A stretch of DNA of 22,977 nucleotides from a virus. Positions 10,658-17,651 of this stretch are shown here, piece by piece. The DNA lies in IMG/VR virus record IMGVR_UViG_3300035034_001766, positions 1 to 22,977 of that record; one strand, given 5' to 3'. Within the stretch, counting starts at the first letter, position 1. Every line of letters starts with the position of its first letter. The notes under the pieces were generated by a model that saw only the letters and a program-made list of their open reading frames with translations, had not been told where the DNA came from and did no database searches. Both the position numbers and the translations under genes were made by a program.

Positions 10658-10894
10658 ATGACGCACGAATTTCAAATTAACCGCAACGGCGACACACCAG
10701 ACACTCTGAAAAGTGAGTTCATTGCAGTAATGAACGCCGCAAGAGAGTTGACCGCGGCATTGCAGGCCATGACCGTCAACGGTCAATCCGCAATCGCACA
10801 GACCGGTCAGGACCGGGCGGTTCTCGCTCAGAATGTTGAAGCAATCCGCATATGGGCAGAAGCTGGTGCTATTCGTGTGATGAATCAGTCATGA
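10658..10894 (+). CDS. Small helical hypothetical protein, 78 aa
   Basis: I chose ATG 10658 because AGGGAG (10645-10650) lies 7 bases upstream. An in-frame TTG at 10604 with its own AGGGAA would add 18 residues and cannot be excluded. The sequence is mostly helical (ELTAALQAMTVNGQSAIAQ, then RAVLAQNVEAIRIWAEAGA) with few charges, suggestive of a small coiled-coil or helical-bundle partner protein. Its TGA overlaps the methyltransferase ATG as ATGA, so the two are probably made together. No known family recognised. Confidence 0.6.
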   Translation: MTHEFQINRNGDTPDTLKSEFIAVMNAARELTAALQAMTVNGQSAIAQTGQDRAVLAQNVEAIRIWAEAGAIRVMNQS

Positions 10895-12264
10895 GCAACC
10901 TTCCCGCCACGCTGCGCCGCCTGTCTGACATCGTAGACGAGTACGACACCAAGGTCGCGGCCATCCCGGCGACCGTTGAAGATTTCAAGCGATCCGTCGC
11001 CGCGGCTGAAATGGCTGCCTGTATCGGTGGGCAGTATGTGGGTTCGATCTTTCACCGGTCCTCGCCAAGCCTACAGGAGCATGCCCTCGCCAGTAACCTT
11101 TTGGAATCAGCGTGGAAGCACGTCTATCACGGACTGAACCTCGACAAGATTGCCCCTGCGTCCGACCGGTCGCGGTTCGAGACGGCTTTCAAGTCACCCG
11201 CACCGTTCACGCTGGACAATATCAGGGCCACGTTTGGTAAATATATCAGCGACCCACGCGGGCACATCTTGCGTGGTTTGGCCGAGGCGTTTGGAGAACT
11301 GGACCAATCCTTCAAGAGCCATGACCGTATGAAGATTGGCGTCAAGGGTCTCCCCAAACGTGTCATATTGTCCAGTGTCACCGACTCATGGCGCGGAGGA
11401 TATGGTACTGCGCGATTGCGTGACATGTTAAACGCGCTTTGCGTTTATAACGGTATGCCCCATCTGACCCACGGGCAGTTTAGCGACATGCTGTCAGGTG
11501 GGAGGGTCAGGGCGGTTGTTGAACCTGACACGACTGAGGGCCGCGCCCCACGCAACGAGGTGCTGGGTGATACCGTTGAGGGCGCCCTGGGCGACGTTTG
11601 GCTGAAGCGGTTTGCCAACGGCAACGGGCATTTGTTTTTCGGGTCGGACATGTTGAAGTTGGTGAACGAGGCGCTGGCCGAATACTACGGTGAAGTATTA
11701 CCTGACTGCCCAGAAGCGCGACCTGAGCGTGCAGCATCGACCGCTGTGGCCCGTGACCTACAATTCTACCGCACACCCGCCCAGGCCGCCGATTTGTTAG
11801 TTGATCGAGCCGAACCGCGGACAGGTATGAGGATCCTTGAACCGTCTTGTGGTGACGGGGCAATCATGGACGCCGTAAAGCGGTTCGCAGGTCGCCGGAA
11901 CATCGACGACCTACGGATCGTCGGAGTCGAGGTCAGCGTGTGTCGGGCCGACGCCGCAAAGGCGAAAGGATATGCGGTCCAGGTTGCCAATTTTCTGCAA
12001 GTCACACCGACCGCCGACTTTGATATGGTGCTGATGAACCCTCCCTTTTACGGTAAGCATTATCAGAAGCACGTCGAGCACGCCCTGAAATTCCTGAAGC
12101 CGGGTGGAGTTCTTTACGCCATCCTTCCGATCACGGCTCTGACCGATCATGGCTATATCGAACCGGGTCGGGGTTGGGATAAATGGAAAGACCTGCCTCC
12201 CGGATCGTTTACCGAAAGCGGCACAAATATAAATACGGGCATCGCGCGGTGGTACTGTGAGTAG
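10891..12264 (+). CDS. DUF4942-type adenine-specific DNA methyltransferase
   Basis: The 457-aa protein has two parts. Residues 1-270 resemble the DUF4942 module that precedes some phage and prophage methyltransferases, probably for target recognition. Residues 290-457 form an S-adenosylmethionine-dependent methyltransferase: FYRTP (292-296), motif I ILEPSCGDG (315-323) and motif IV NPPF (383-386), the catalytic signature of N6-adenine methyltransferases. No restriction endonuclease partner is adjacent, so it is an orphan enzyme and likely protects phage DNA or modifies host DNA. The start is ATG 10891, overlapping the preceding stop; upstream in-frame codons from 10852 lie inside that gene. 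Strongly G+C-rich (37 of 60 bases in 11161-11220), unlike the backbone. Confidence 0.85.
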   Translation: MSNLPATLRRLSDIVDEYDTKVAAIPATVEDFKRSVAAAEMAACIGGQYVGSIFHRSSPSLQEHALASNLLESAWKHVYHGLNLDKIAPASDRSRFETAFKSPAPFTLDNIRATFGKYISDPRGHILRGLAEAFGELDQSFKSHDRMKIGVKGLPKRVILSSVTDSWRGGYGTARLRDMLNALCVYNGMPHLTHGQFSDMLSGGRVRAVVEPDTTEGRAPRNEVLGDTVEGALGDVWLKRFANGNGHLFFGSDMLKLVNEALAEYYGEVLPDCPEARPERAASTAVARDLQFYRTPAQAADLLVDRAEPRTGMRILEPSCGDGAIMDAVKRFAGRRNIDDLRIVGVEVSVCRADAAKAKGYAVQVANFLQVTPTADFDMVLMNPPFYGKHYQKHVEHALKFLKPGGVLYAILPITALTDHGYIEPGRGWDKWKDLPPGSFTESGTNINTGIARWYCE

Positions 12265-12344: not shown

Positions 12345-13034
12345 ATGGTCACCATACTGACACGCAACACCGACATTCTACGAGCCGAAGTTACCGCACA
12401 CATCGCGGCTGATGCTCTAGTGCGAGAATCTTATTGGACTCCTAATGAAAATGCTGTTGGTGGTACTGGCTGCTTTATAGGGTGTCTGTCACACTCAGAT
12501 GACCCTGGACCAGCTTTTGAGCGCTTTGGCCTGCCACTTGCTGTTTTAAGACTTGCGGAAAATATCTTCGAGGCGCTGCCTAAAGAAGAGGGTAAGGCGT
12601 TTTTTGCCGCGCTGCCTGATGCCGTTGCCCGCGATGGAAAAGATTTGAACCGTGTGGCGTGGGGGTTTCTTTCATCTGAATTACGGTTACTACCCAAGAC
12701 AACCGATGTGGTGCAGGCGGTCATAGATACAGTAATTCTAGGTATGGATTTGCTGTCTAACGGTCAAGAATGGACCGATGACGTTAATGCTATTTATTCC
12801 GTTAATTGCGCTAATGCTGCCTATACCAAGGCTGATGGATCCTATGCATCATATGCTGCCTCTCATGCCACCGCCGCCGTCCTTGCCTGTCGCGGTACAC
12901 ATCCTGATGTAGATGTACCCTATGCTGCCGACTGTGTCGCCAATGCTGCGCGTACCATTGCCGCAGGTGCCTCCTATACCGCCACCCGACTTCGCCAGCG
13001 GGATACATTGCTTTCGCTAATAGCCGCTGCTTAA
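12345..13034 (+). CDS. CFIGC-motif protein, first of two tandem paralogues
   Basis: The 229-aa protein starts at ATG 12345, preceded by AAGGAA about 6 bases upstream. Residues 42-47 are GCFIGC (C43, C47), followed by a SHSDDPGPAFERFGLPLAVLRL region, and residues 135-165 hold DVVQAVIDTVILGMDLLSNG. The C-terminal 75 residues are a degenerate Ala/Tyr-rich stretch (AAYTKADGSYASYAASHAT, and AANAARTIAAGASY) ending LRQRDTLLSLIAAA. I recall related phage and plasmid proteins with a CFIGC-like motif, an inhibitor-of-unknown-type context and Ala-rich tails, but no established function. It is about 45% identical by eye to the next gene. Confidence 0.65.
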   Translation: MVTILTRNTDILRAEVTAHIAADALVRESYWTPNENAVGGTGCFIGCLSHSDDPGPAFERFGLPLAVLRLAENIFEALPKEEGKAFFAALPDAVARDGKDLNRVAWGFLSSELRLLPKTTDVVQAVIDTVILGMDLLSNGQEWTDDVNAIYSVNCANAAYTKADGSYASYAASHATAAVLACRGTHPDVDVPYAADCVANAARTIAAGASYTATRLRQRDTLLSLIAAA

Positions 13035-13055: not shown

Positions 13056-13712
13056 ATGGTCGCTATGCTCACACGCAATATTGCACAATTTCGTGGTAAT
13101 ATCGAATTCCATGCCGCTTCTGATTTACTCGACGGTGGTAATTGTTATTACTATAACCCTAAGTCACAAAAGGCTTGTTTTATTGGTTGTCAGGTTAAAA
13201 CTGGTGACACGAAACTTCTGGAAACAGAATACGGTATTCCTGAAGTTCTGGCTCGTATACTGGAAGCAATTTTTGAGTCACAGCCAAGTAAGATCGACAA
13301 AGTTACATTTGCGCTAGAGGTCGGCGATGCAATTGAAAGAGACGGCAAAGATCTGACTCTCGTATCTTGGATTTTTCTTTCATCTGCGCTAAGGTCGATG
13401 CCTAAAGTTATAGATACGGTCCAAGCAACCATTGATCCTATTATCGCAGGAATGAATTTACTGGCAAATGGAAAAGATTGGTCGTCTGACTTGGCTGGTG
13501 CTGCCGGTTTTACCGCAGAAAATATTTTCGAGTTTACAGACCCCGTCGCAGGATATGCTTCCCTAGCGGCAGCATATGCTGCCTATGCCGTTACTGATGC
13601 CGGCACCGCAGGTTGGGCTGCATACAACGCTATTGATGCGGGTGGTGCTTACGGAGAAGAAGTACGACTGCAACAGCGCAATGATATTTTGTCACTTATC
13701 CGCGCAGCTTAA
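13056..13712 (+). CDS. CFIGC-motif protein, second tandem paralogue
   Basis: The 218-aa protein is a diverged duplicate of the preceding gene. The start (MVAMLTRNIAQF against MVTILTRNTDIL), the CFIGC motif (C41, C45), the VIDTVQATIDPIIAGMNLLANGKDW segment and the LQQRNDILSLIRAA end all correspond. Its Ala-rich tail (SLAAAYAAYAVTDAGTAGWA) differs in composition from that of the first copy, as if the tails expand or contract by small repeat units. The copy is richer in A+T than its partner, closer to the phage backbone, so it may have been resident longer. RBS AAAGGA lies about 8 bases before the ATG. Function unknown. Confidence 0.65.
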   Translation: MVAMLTRNIAQFRGNIEFHAASDLLDGGNCYYYNPKSQKACFIGCQVKTGDTKLLETEYGIPEVLARILEAIFESQPSKIDKVTFALEVGDAIERDGKDLTLVSWIFLSSALRSMPKVIDTVQATIDPIIAGMNLLANGKDWSSDLAGAAGFTAENIFEFTDPVAGYASLAAAYAAYAVTDAGTAGWAAYNAIDAGGAYGEEVRLQQRNDILSLIRAA

Positions 13713-14079: not shown

Positions 14080-14093
14080 ATTAGTTTGCGAAT
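14065..14093. terminator. Perfect 11-bp hairpin between convergent genes, possible bidirectional terminator
   Basis: ATTCGCAAACT (14065-14075) and AGTTTGCGAAT (14083-14093) are exact reverse complements around a 7-base loop. The structure contains the TGA of the + strand gene (14077-14079) and the TAA of the - strand tape measure (14083-14081), and codes the last residues of both. There is no U-tract on either side, so it may end or protect transcripts by structure rather than act as a classical intrinsic terminator. Confidence 0.65.
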
Positions 14094-16045
14094 CCTGCCA
14101 TACCGGATCCTCGTCCATGACCGGCACCGATTGATGTGATTCTCTGATTATTATAAGTCGTAGCACCTCGGACAGTGTTCTGTACTGGAGCTATAGTAGG
14201 AGCACTCGTAACAATGATGGGTGCGACGTCGCTTTGACTTAGCAGAGCATCTTCCAGAATACTCAAAACCTCAGTCGGATTTACTCCTCCCATCATAGAT
14301 GGCTGGAATATAAACGCAGGTTCTACTTCTGGGATTACCTGGCTGAAGACACTTCTTGCTTCGGTAGACCCTCTTAATGCTGCGATGTCAGTAGAAAGAG
14401 TCGCAAGGAATCTTCTTTGTTCTGCAAGGGCACTGTCAACATTTCTAGTGAACGAAGTATTATCCATTCCGATTTCTTGGATATAGTCTGTTCTACGTTC
14501 TTCCAGATCGCGTATGCGCTCATATGTCTCGCTAACACCCTCGAAGAGTGATCTTCTTTCTCTTTCTGTATTTACCAGATCTATAACGCTCTGTACTCTC
14601 AGTTCTTCCGCTGAGAATGCTATGTCTTCGAATGCACTTTCACTCAATCTTTGAAGATTAGGATTCTCACCTAAGATATTTGAAAAAGATTCCCGCAGTG
14701 ACTCTAGTATTTCTCCTTCGGGTATCTTAAATTCGAACTGACCACCCATTTCTACTGGTGTGTCGGGAGTAATTGCTTCGAGAGATCCTGAAACTGTTTG
14801 TCTGAATACTTCAAGTTCCTCAGCTGCATTGCCTGCTCTGCTAAGTCCTATACCAAGTGCTGTTCTTCTAAGAACTCCTGGTGCCTGGTCATTCTGAACA
14901 GCATCCAGACCGGCAAATCCTGCTGCAGTTCTTTCTTCAAGTTCTGCTATGAAAGCATTCTGTCTTCTCTCTAGCCACCCTTCAACTAACACAACGCTAC
15001 CGACAAGTGCAGCACCAGTCAATGCGGCTAAGCCCACGGGTCCTGTAAGTGCTGCGAGAAGCAAGCCGCCACTCAGTCTTAGTAAAGCAGGTGCGAGTAA
15101 TATCAATGCACCACCTAGTGCCCCAGACATAGCTTGTGTGACTGTAGATGCATTAAAATCTACACCTAGTATTCTCCATGTTTCATCAGATATGTCACCG
15201 TCGGTGAGTCCCAGGGATGCCAGCATATTCTCACCAAAACTCGAAAATAGTCCTGCCATCGCACCTACCGCAGCACCGCGAGCACCGAAGACAAGACCAA
15301 GCGCACCACCTATGGCAGCTCTATTCACGGGATTACTTATGGATGCAATAAACTCTGGAGAGGCACCAGCATCTCTTAATCCCACTTCGACAATTGTCGA
15401 CACAAAGTTACCGATGTATGGTGCCAGAACTGCTAGGGGTATTGCTCGAAGTAGCAGTCCACCAATTGCTCTTACTGACAGGAGCGAGGCAGCGCCGCCT
15501 AAGGCAGCTCCAATAAAACCACCGAACCCAGGTCCTAATGTCGTAAGTAGCGTCTGTAAGAATCCCATCTGGGCTGCTGCCGGGGCACCGGAACCCGAAC
15601 CATCACCACTAGATCCACTGCCTCCTCTTTGTTCGCTCGTATCTGTTCTTTCCGCTCTGCTAAGTTTATCTCTTAATCTTGTGCGCTCTTCAGCATCTTC
15701 AGTTATCTTGAGCATACTAAGACCGGATGCTGCAATGTCCATTAGCGTGCTCGACTGTCGCGTAATTGCTTCTCGCATGGAAGCAAAAACTTCGCCGAAT
15801 TTTTCGACTCCAACAGAAACTGAGCGAAGAGAATCATCATCTCCACTACGAGTGAGTTCACCTTCTCGCTTGATGTTATCAATGAGCTCTGCCTGTCTTT
15901 TTACGCCAGAGTCACTGTCGCGCTTATTGTCACGTCTATTCTTGGAGTTCTCATCACGCTTTCTCTTTTCTTCAGCAATCCTAGCATGATTTGCCTCTCT
16001 CTTAATACTGTTGGCGATATCTGCCTGCGTCTTCTTGTCATCCAT
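14081..16045 (-). CDS. Tail tape-measure protein (gp29-like position)
   Basis: The 654-aa protein, from ATG 16045, overlaps the end of the small ORF at 16038. A further ATG at 16066 gives 661 aa but has no ribosome binding site, whereas AAGAAG precedes 16045. The layout is that of a tape measure: a charged helical N-terminus (residues 1-135, rich in Lys, Arg, Glu), a Gly/Ser linker near 141-155, a long hydrophobic Ala/Gly-rich region from about 160 to 355 with several membrane-like segments (for example LLLRAIPLAVLAPYIGNFV), then helical heptad-like stretches and a Gly-rich tail. Tape measures set tail length and are ejected through the tube at infection. Its place after a gp26/gp51-family chaperone supports this. 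It is longer than T4 gp29 (590 aa); sequence likeness is weak. Confidence 0.75.
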   Translation of the reverse strand: MDDKKTQADIANSIKREANHARIAEEKRKRDENSKNRRDNKRDSDSGVKRQAELIDNIKREGELTRSGDDDSLRSVSVGVEKFGEVFASMREAITRQSSTLMDIAASGLSMLKITEDAEERTRLRDKLSRAERTDTSEQRGGSGSSGDGSGSGAPAAAQMGFLQTLLTTLGPGFGGFIGAALGGAASLLSVRAIGGLLLRAIPLAVLAPYIGNFVSTIVEVGLRDAGASPEFIASISNPVNRAAIGGALGLVFGARGAAVGAMAGLFSSFGENMLASLGLTDGDISDETWRILGVDFNASTVTQAMSGALGGALILLAPALLRLSGGLLLAALTGPVGLAALTGAALVGSVVLVEGWLERRQNAFIAELEERTAAGFAGLDAVQNDQAPGVLRRTALGIGLSRAGNAAEELEVFRQTVSGSLEAITPDTPVEMGGQFEFKIPEGEILESLRESFSNILGENPNLQRLSESAFEDIAFSAEELRVQSVIDLVNTERERRSLFEGVSETYERIRDLEERRTDYIQEIGMDNTSFTRNVDSALAEQRRFLATLSTDIAALRGSTEARSVFSQVIPEVEPAFIFQPSMMGGVNPTEVLSILEDALLSQSDVAPIIVTSAPTIAPVQNTVRGATTYNNQRITSIGAGHGRGSGMAGFAN

Positions 16046-16217
16046 TTTTATTCTTCTTGCTTTCATGTAGTCGTTTCAGATGCTGTATTAACATTGCATA
16101 ATAGATATCACGCTCGTAGGGTATTAAGTTTTCTAGATCTTCGATACTGTATTGATGGTGCTGAGCCAGAAGAAAGATCATTTCGTAATAGATCTTTAAG
16201 TCACAGTGACTCAGCAT
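16038..16217 (-). CDS. Small tail-assembly ORF, likely reached by -1 frameshift or TAATG coupling
   Basis: The 59-aa product reads through YYEMIFLLAQHHQYSIEDLENLIPYERDIYYAMLIQHLKRL. It starts at ATG 16217, overlapping the chaperone TAA (TAATG), and lies in the -1 frame relative to the chaperone. A slippery T_TTT_TTT (16229-16223) sits two codons before that stop, and no stop lies between it and this frame. The element IPYERDIYYAML resembles the short proteins between chaperone and tape measure in other T4-like phages. The position, between a tail chaperone and the tape measure, is that of the GT extension of lambda-like phages, where the fused product binds the tape measure. It could be a separate protein, a fusion tail, or both. 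The ORF itself is secure. Confidence 0.75.
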   Translation of the reverse strand: MLSHCDLKIYYEMIFLLAQHHQYSIEDLENLIPYERDIYYAMLIQHLKRLHESKKNKNG

Positions 16218-16229
16218 TAGGAAAAAAAA
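16197..16229 (-). promoter_or_regulatory. Candidate -1 ribosomal frameshift site
   Basis: On the - strand, the zero-frame codons ACT TTT TTT TCC TAA contain the canonical heptamer T_TTT_TTT at 16229-16223. After a 9-base spacer comes a weak stem-loop: TGAGTCA (16213-16207) pairs with TGACTTA (16203-16197), including one G-U pair, around a CTG loop. Slippage by -1 reads TTC CTA ATG and joins the 59-aa frame, giving a fusion of about 292 aa. Confidence 0.6.
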
Positions 16230-16915
16230 GTTTTGAGTCCTTCGATGACAAATGTCTTTTCTGTTTTTGCACTGTTCGTATAGTGAACTTCATGTCTTAG
16301 AATAGGCATAGTACTAAAGAAATTCTTAATTTCTTTTACGGCAGGCGAAGAAAGATCATCAGCAAAGTCATTAATTTCTGTCTCAGAAAAATCTCTAAAG
16401 TTTAAGACTTCATCACCCTTGATAAGTTTATCCATACAGCTAATCATGATCTGAAACTCTGTTTGGGGATTATTCATATCTTTCATAAGAAGAAGGTACT
16501 CGTTAATAGTAGGATACCTCATTATGATTACGTAGTCGTCGTCAACTCGAATCTGAGTTGTGTGGTCTGGATTTCTATTTACTATGACATCATCTATATT
16601 TAATTCCAGCTTTACTTCTTCAGAAGTATCTGGGTCTTTAATTGCGAATGTTACGTTATTGTTTACAGATTTTGCTCTGATCAATAGGAGAATATACTCC
16701 AGATCAAACATAGACATCGTATCTATATCCTGGTCTTGCAGACAGTTATTTACCACCTGCTTGACAGAAAGTATAGATTGCTCAATGTCTTTTGCCTCTT
16801 GTGCAATCAAGAGTATCTTTTCTTCTCTTACGGTAAACGGTCTGTACAGAATCTCTTTTCCAGACGAAGGAAGAGTTAAAGAATAGAGCGGTTGCGTTAT
16901 TTTTGGTAAGCCCAT
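16217..16915 (-). CDS. Baseplate/tail assembly chaperone, gp26/gp51 family
   Basis: The 232-aa protein fits the T4 baseplate-assembly family shared by gp26 (208 aa) and gp51 (249 aa). It opens LPKITQPLYSLTLPSSGKEILYRPFTVREEKILLIA, the family's typical start, and has acidic stretches in the middle (LELNIDDVIVNRN, DDDYVIIMRYPTINEYL) plus a helical C-terminus. Members act as catalysts or chaperones of hub assembly and precede the tape measure. The ATG at 16915 follows AAAAGG. It ends FFS-TAA on a T8 run that is a possible frameshift site. T4 encodes two such genes; only one is seen here. Confidence 0.82.
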   Translation of the reverse strand: MGLPKITQPLYSLTLPSSGKEILYRPFTVREEKILLIAQEAKDIEQSILSVKQVVNNCLQDQDIDTMSMFDLEYILLLIRAKSVNNNVTFAIKDPDTSEEVKLELNIDDVIVNRNPDHTTQIRVDDDYVIIMRYPTINEYLLLMKDMNNPQTEFQIMISCMDKLIKGDEVLNFRDFSETEINDFADDLSSPAVKEIKNFFSTMPILRHEVHYTNSAKTEKTFVIEGLKTFFS

Positions 16916-16928
16916 GTTATAAAACCTT

Positions 16929-17651
16929 TTATGAGAGTGACGAGGCAGAAGAAAACGTGTCTACTGATCGAGTGTCAAAGTCACGAATGACTCGTGATAT
17001 GTTGCCATTTCTTGCTAGAGAATTTTCTGAGCCTAAGAAGAGACTAGAGTTTTCATATGGTATGTCGTAAAATCCAGAGTACACCAATCTGTTGTACGAG
17101 AAGTTTACAGTAATGGTGGCAGGACCATCTCCTGCCCAGTTCAAATCAATATTGCTTATCTGTGTCGGGTAAACATTCTCGTATCTGCACTCATAATATG
17201 ATGATGGGTTATGAGTGGAAAAGTGACGAATAGTAAGTTCTGACGCGCAGTAGTTGTCTTTGTATTCGATTAGCATTGGAGCCAACCCACGAAAGTTTCC
17301 GCCTCTATTTCCGCTTACGTTCGTCACAGATGTAATCCAGCGGTGAAAGAATGTCAGAATCTTGTGGTTGTTGTCCAGCATGAAGACGCCGTTCAGTGCT
17401 TCAGGTGTAGCACTCATAGGCATATATTCTGCAAAGCCCAGACCAGTTGGCTTATATGCCATCGTCTCAAGATTAATCCCTGGCATAGAGACAGTTTGAC
17501 AGAAGAATCTTAAGTCGTCAGATGTAATGACGCCCGGGACAATGACTTCTCCTCTGCGGTTCGTAGCAGATATCATTGTCTCAAAAAGATTTGTTCTGGC
17601 TGGCCCGCCAAATTTATCTATTCTCGATTTAAATTCTGATATGTTAAACAC
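16929..17651 (-). CDS. 54: Tail-tube-fold protein, gp54-like baseplate tube initiator
   Basis: The 240-aa protein has the tube-protein pattern: N-terminal MFNISEFKSRIDKFGGPARTNLF, FFCQTVSMPGIN (tail-tube proteins carry a similar VxMP segment), a central FHRWITSV-like stretch, and VYPTQISNIDLNW near residue 165, which resembles the gp19 VYPTxI motif, then a GPATITVNFSYNRL strand. Order and length fit a gp54-like initiator that caps the hub and nucleates tube assembly. T4 gp54 is longer (320 aa). A second tail-tube paralogue is the main alternative. The start lies one base after the stop of the upstream gene. Confidence 0.68.
   Translation of the reverse strand: MFNISEFKSRIDKFGGPARTNLFETMISATNRRGEVIVPGVITSDDLRFFCQTVSMPGINLETMAYKPTGLGFAEYMPMSATPEALNGVFMLDNNHKILTFFHRWITSVTNVSGNRGGNFRGLAPMLIEYKDNYCASELTIRHFSTHNPSSYYECRYENVYPTQISNIDLNWAGDGPATITVNFSYNRLVYSGFYDIPYENSSLFLGSENSLARNGNISRVIRDFDTRSVDTFSSASSLS

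Follow-up and report, generated by a model that had tools for sequence, protein, structure and literature searches.

Organisation of the locus

The window (the whole stretch of viral DNA analysed here, 22,977 nucleotides of IMG/VR record IMGVR_UViG_3300035034_001766) carries on its minus strand a run of tail genes in the order tail tube, gp26 homologue, gp51-like tail and tape-measure-like gene. The features relevant to this study are listed below with the evidence for each.

16929-17651, minus strand: tail tube (gp19-like) gene, upstream of the gp26 homologue (phrog_45, E 1.3e-32, and PF23849)
16217-16915, minus strand: gp26 homologue (PF12322, phrog_150), 232 aa, putative short tail assembly chaperone, TAC-N (Pfam, PHROG and fold)
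16238-16243, minus strand: SD-like GAAGGA (AAGG at 16242-16239, AAGGA at 16242-16238), lying 9 nt before the heptamer and probably an upstream stimulator (relatives)
16223-16229, minus strand: slippery heptamer T_TTT_TTT in the gp26 phase (sequence and conservation)
16217-16219, minus strand: 0-frame stop codon TAA of gp26, 3 nt past the heptamer and overlapping an ATG as TAATG (sequence)
16222-16214, minus strand: spacer TCCTAATGC, 9 nt, from heptamer to hairpin (sequence)
16197-16213, minus strand: hairpin TGAGTCA-CTG-TGACTTA, 7 bp, separated from the heptamer by 9 nt and probably a downstream stimulator (folding z -2.5 and relatives)
16038-16217, minus strand: gp51-like C-terminal domain (TAC-C) in the -1 frame, 59 codons from an internal ATG (PHROG and homology to T4 gp51)
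14081-16066, minus strand: tape-measure-like protein, 661 aa, directly downstream of the gp51-like tail (position and size)

The 232-aa product of the gp26 homologue matches the Pfam T4_baseplate family (PF12322) with an E-value of 3.5e-52 and a score of 177.7 bits, above the gathering score of 24.5, and matches phrog_150 with an E-value of 2.3e-58. In its -1 frame lies a 59-aa reading frame, running from an ATG at 16217 to a TGA that ends at 16038; an in-phase 59-aa frame had been described in an earlier note made from the DNA letters. The translation of this frame matches phrog_634 ('baseplate hub assembly catalyst') with an E-value of 9.8e-20, and also positions 250-281 of phrog_150. The tube gene is clear; the tape measure is assigned from its size and position, together with a weak match to the phrog_58 profile (tape measure, E 0.031). 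The tape-measure-like ORF has alternative starts at 16066 or 16045, and the latter overlaps the stop codon of the gp51-like tail (ATGGATGA), which suggests translational coupling.

Predicted frameshift site

Read on the minus strand, the site is ...GAAGGACTCAAA-ACT TTT TTT TCC TAA TGC TGA GTC ACT GTG ACT TA, in which the third base of ACT and the following TTT TTT make up the heptamer. The earlier note had proposed a programmed -1 frameshift from the phase of this heptamer, the 9-base spacer and the 7-bp hairpin, all of which were recovered at the positions listed above. The hairpin region has a folding energy of -10.3 kcal/mol, with a z of -2.5 relative to shuffled sequences. The 0-frame stop that ends the short ORF does not interrupt the -1 frame, which reads on through it. 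The SD-like AAGGA upstream of the heptamer had been overlooked.

We propose that the gp26 homologue is a TAC-N gene on which a fraction of ribosomes would slip into the -1 frame by tandem slippage on T_TTT_TTT, just ahead of the stop codon, probably with help from the SD-like GAAGGA that precedes the heptamer and from the hairpin that follows it. Slipped ribosomes would continue into the gp51-like frame and, at whatever efficiency, produce a long form (TAC-NC) of 292 aa in all, with a junction reading ...LKTFFFLMLSHCDLKIYYEM... (within the wider stretch ...KTFFFLMLSHCDLKIYYEM...) and a predicted tryptic junction peptide of TFFFLMLSHCDLK. The corresponding predicted junctions in relatives are ...LEGLQSFFR followed by ISMFYNNLENYYR in S-PM2 and ...GLSDFFR in P-HM2. 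The two forms would act jointly as chaperones of the tape-measure protein, whose gene follows; such chaperones are as a rule not found in virions. We regard this reading as a whole, a frameshifting TAC-N gene with a gp51-like long form chaperoning the tape measure, as very likely correct. Since the in-frame ATG overlaps the stop codon in the window and in some relatives, gp51 could additionally be translated as a free protein of 59 aa.

Conservation in related phages

Loci of relatives were gathered by gp26 similarity alone, together with annotated phages, and were not selected for the heptamer; this gave 212 distinct loci, with 158 representatives used for the statistics on start codons, the SD-like element and T-runs. 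The earlier note had suggested looking for conservation of the T-run and its phase in related phages, and T_TTT_TTN was found in the same gp26 phase in 210 of the 212 loci (167 TTTTTTC, 38 TTTTTTT and 5 TTTTTTA), usually 3 nt ahead of the 0-frame stop. It is missing from two loci, those of a T4-type Klebsiella phage, in which gene 25 follows, and of Vibrio phage K444.

This conservation extends to the level of codon choice. The slippery context was present at the terminal FF pair in 205 of 205 loci, whereas 5 of the 203 FF pairs elsewhere in these genes had it (p about 1e-112 by Fisher's test), and synonymous resampling indicates that random codons would give the heptamer or T6 in about 43% of representatives. 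The codon preceding the site is AGT, GAT, TCT, AAT, ACT, GCT, GGT or CAT, ending in T always, whatever the residue. Downstream, the -1 frame is open in the relatives and encodes a tail with the consensus LSHxxLExYYxxNFALMQHHKYSLTELENMIPWEREIYV, conserved across the junction as FF-R/L-x-A-LSHxxLExYY. From these comparisons, the T_TTT_TTT and the layout of the -1 frame are not products of chance, and the proposed linkage of gp26 to a gp51-like tail by a -1 frameshift has strong comparative support from conservation and codon controls.

In GenBank records, Mosig, P-HM2 and HTVC008M carry a truncated gp51 annotated from an internal start and P-RSM1 has no gp51 annotated, the apparent reason being that the real frame lacks a start codon near the junction.

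Probable upstream and downstream stimulators

Among the 158 representatives, GAGG occurs 10 nt upstream of the heptamer in 84 and AAGG 9 nt upstream in 45. Pairing with the anti-SD has a stronger duplex energy than expected from synonymous resampling (p 2e-15), though the E-G residues encoded there are themselves conserved. Downstream structure likewise exceeds what synonymous resampling gives (p 6e-24), with a mean z of -2.2, while a control stretch within this tail has a mean z of -0.3; in S-PM2 a 14-bp stem lies downstream of the site. These synonymous-codon tests show, at the level of sequence, selection for an SD-like GGAGG or GAAGG 9-10 nt upstream and for a downstream hairpin. One helix common to all relatives was sought and none was found, covariation being weak (excess 0.06), so that the hairpin signal is carried lineage by lineage. 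The stimulators thus appear to be renewed within lineages.

Relationship to T4 gp26 and gp51

According to the abstract of an earlier study by Vladimirov and colleagues, several T4-like groups reportedly share conserved frameshifting and the T4 group uses separate genes. The comparison with T4 is as follows. In T4 gp51 (249 aa), PF12322 covers residues 1-201 and is followed by the same tail in one frame, whereas T4 gp26 (208 aa) ends near the position of the frameshift site. The -1 tail is homologous to the C-terminus of T4 gp51: phrog_634 matches both, and the tail HMM matches every T4-type gp51 tested, matches that are to be read together with the alignment. The tail profile, being short and helical, gives some false positives: it assigned 17.8 bits to one shuffled T4-type gp51.

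T4-type gp26 proteins keep the residues GLKEFF, encoded at the end as GAG TTC TTT, GAA TTC TTT or GAG TTT TTT, none of which forms T_TTT_TTN. T4 differs from the present phage in having two separate genes and no slippery heptamer at the FF position, but the proteins are homologous, gp26 to the short form and gp51 to the long form. By sequence comparison, T4 gp51 is the natural in-frame version of the predicted fusion and T4 gp26 is the short form, and the two T4 genes correspond to one frameshifting gene in this phage. T4 itself makes the short form from gene 26 and the long form from gene 51. Both proteins are counted among the hub assembly chaperones in a review of T4 (PMC3004832).

Relatives without the heptamer

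The earlier note had named, as a case that would count against it, relatives that lack the T-run and keep the gp51 ORF with its own start. Among the relatives examined, T_TTT_TTN is absent only in T4-type phages and in the Ackermannviridae; the former have a separate full-length gp51, and the latter keep the -1 tail behind N_[AC]TT_TT[CT], often without a start codon.

In the Ackermannviridae this variant site stands at the 3' end of gp26 in place of T_TTT_TTN, and the -1 frame again encodes a gp51-like tail. Members with the variant site include Ag3, phiEa2809, Dickeya Ds20CZ, K444, D494 and kuttervirus-like contigs. Many of their -1 tails lack a start codon and most are unannotated; homology to the tails of the main set is detectable for the Ag3 type and weak for the Vibrio and Aeromonas tails. 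The same fusion made via a different site, with frameshifting there, is probable on this evidence.

Alternative explanations

If gp51 were instead translated on its own, through termination and reinitiation at the TAATG, the T-run would merely reflect the FF residues. The window does have the TAATG with its in-frame ATG, and in GenBank records gp51 is annotated as a gene of its own. However, 68 of the 158 representatives have no ATG, GTG or TTG in the -1 frame upstream of the site or in the first 8 codons after it, so in these a fusion of gp26 with gp51 is the only way to produce the tail, and an independent gp51 start was rejected as the general mechanism. Homology, moreover, begins at the slippery site and runs through it, and the ATG chosen by annotators sits inside the homologous stretch and is missing in many relatives. 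FF residues alone were rejected as the cause of the T-run, since the other FF pairs in these genes are seldom slippery and those of T4-type gp26 are not. T4 gp51 itself is a fusion. We consider the stand-alone explanation very unlikely.

Transcriptional slippage, in which an 8-T run would yield mixed mRNAs that fuse the frames, is still less probable. The run in the window does have 8 T, but its length is only 6 T in 125 of the 158 relatives, 7 T in 20 and 8 T in 13, and 6 T is short for slippage by RNA polymerase. The selected downstream hairpins and the upstream SD-like element also point to the ribosome, and transcriptional slippage was rejected on the predominance of 6-T runs. No point was found in favour of a coincidental overlap and heptamer from which no fusion is made, and the conservation in 210 of 212 loci and the codon-level tests make it extremely improbable; the frameshifting TAC-N gene is the explanation retained below.

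Predicted fold and chaperone function

The AlphaFold model of the gp26 homologue was built from a 59-sequence alignment and has a pLDDT of 87. Residues 1-84 of the model align with the HK97 tail assembly chaperone (2ob9) with a VIA-align Z of 7.8 over 83 residues; other leading PDB matches of the model are 3fgx (Z 8.3), YqbN 3klu (Z 6.6) and PICI ORF19 5ir0 (Z 5.2), and the best unrelated chain scores Z 4.6. Foldseek alone gave a non-significant match of the model to the chaperone (E 1.1). A search of the gp26 profile against sequences of solved structures returned only chance-like helical designs and an unrelated protein, and the fold comparison told more. The model of a T4-type gp51 has the same order of elements and C-terminal helices of low confidence.

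The predicted fold of gp26 is thus chaperone-like, of the HK97 type, with moderate confidence. The best reading of sequence and model together takes gp26 for the short form of the tail assembly chaperone and the frameshift product for its long form. The analogy to the lambda G/GT system drawn in the earlier note is backed by this fold and by gene order.

Comparison with known systems

In the E. coli dnaX cassette an SD-like element stands about 10 nt upstream of the heptamer A_AAA_AAG, which is followed by a hairpin, and the shifted product is the shorter one. The three parts (upstream SD-like element, slippery heptamer and downstream hairpin) are alike in the present phage, but dnaX is an unrelated gene with a different heptamer, and it is there that the shifted product is shorter. 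The slippery heptamer of lambda G/GT is G_GGA_AAG, whereas here it is T_TTT_TTY, in a larger TAC-N that has further domains and is joined to a gp51-type tail. The present gene resembles lambda G/GT and the chaperones of other dsDNA phages in placing a -1 frameshift close to where the short gene ends, with the tape measure gene soon after, and in the chaperone-like fold represented by HK97 2ob9 (Xu, Hendrix & Duda 2004).

The earlier note did not know frameshifting as described for the gp26/gp51 family. This was wrong: Vladimirov, Gautam & Davidson (Virology 2022) identified the tail assembly chaperone genes of T4-like phages, and the title of their paper and the papers citing it indicate that the phenomenon was already known. 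According to these citing papers, some T4-like phages have one short and one longer fused TAC gene in place of frameshifting (PMC10885494), and poly-T -1 signals occur in the TAC-N genes of T4-like phages (PMC12846349). Our literature search on gp26/gp51 frameshifting found no primary open paper. As far as these sources describe the T4-like chaperones, the present phage shares their poly-T signal and would share their short and long forms, and differs in being one more, uncultured member.

The surprise is limited accordingly, the core idea having been published before. The SD-like stimulator and the Ackermannviridae site may be new elements. Only tentatively do we suggest that both the dnaX-like cassette of three parts (T_TTT_TTY with an SD-like element lying 9-10 nt ahead of it and a lineage-specific hairpin) and the Ackermannviridae fusion via the relaxed N_[AC]TT_TT[CT] had gone undescribed. 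On the proposed reading, hundreds of marine T4-like phages would have a single gene that yields two products where databases list two proteins, gp26 and gp51, and the T4 hub assembly proteins gp26 and gp51 would make sense as the short and the long chaperone of the tail. With the cassette conserved, the control of frameshifting is directly testable in cyanophages and their hosts.

Other genes in the window

Two adjacent paralogous genes on the plus strand (12345-13034 and 13056-13712) encode proteins of 229 and 218 aa that are 37% identical; a PHROG search gave no match for this pair. Also on the plus strand, 10852-12264 encodes a 470-aa protein whose C-terminal part is DNA methyltransferase-like (phrog_6263) and which is not a usual T4 core gene.
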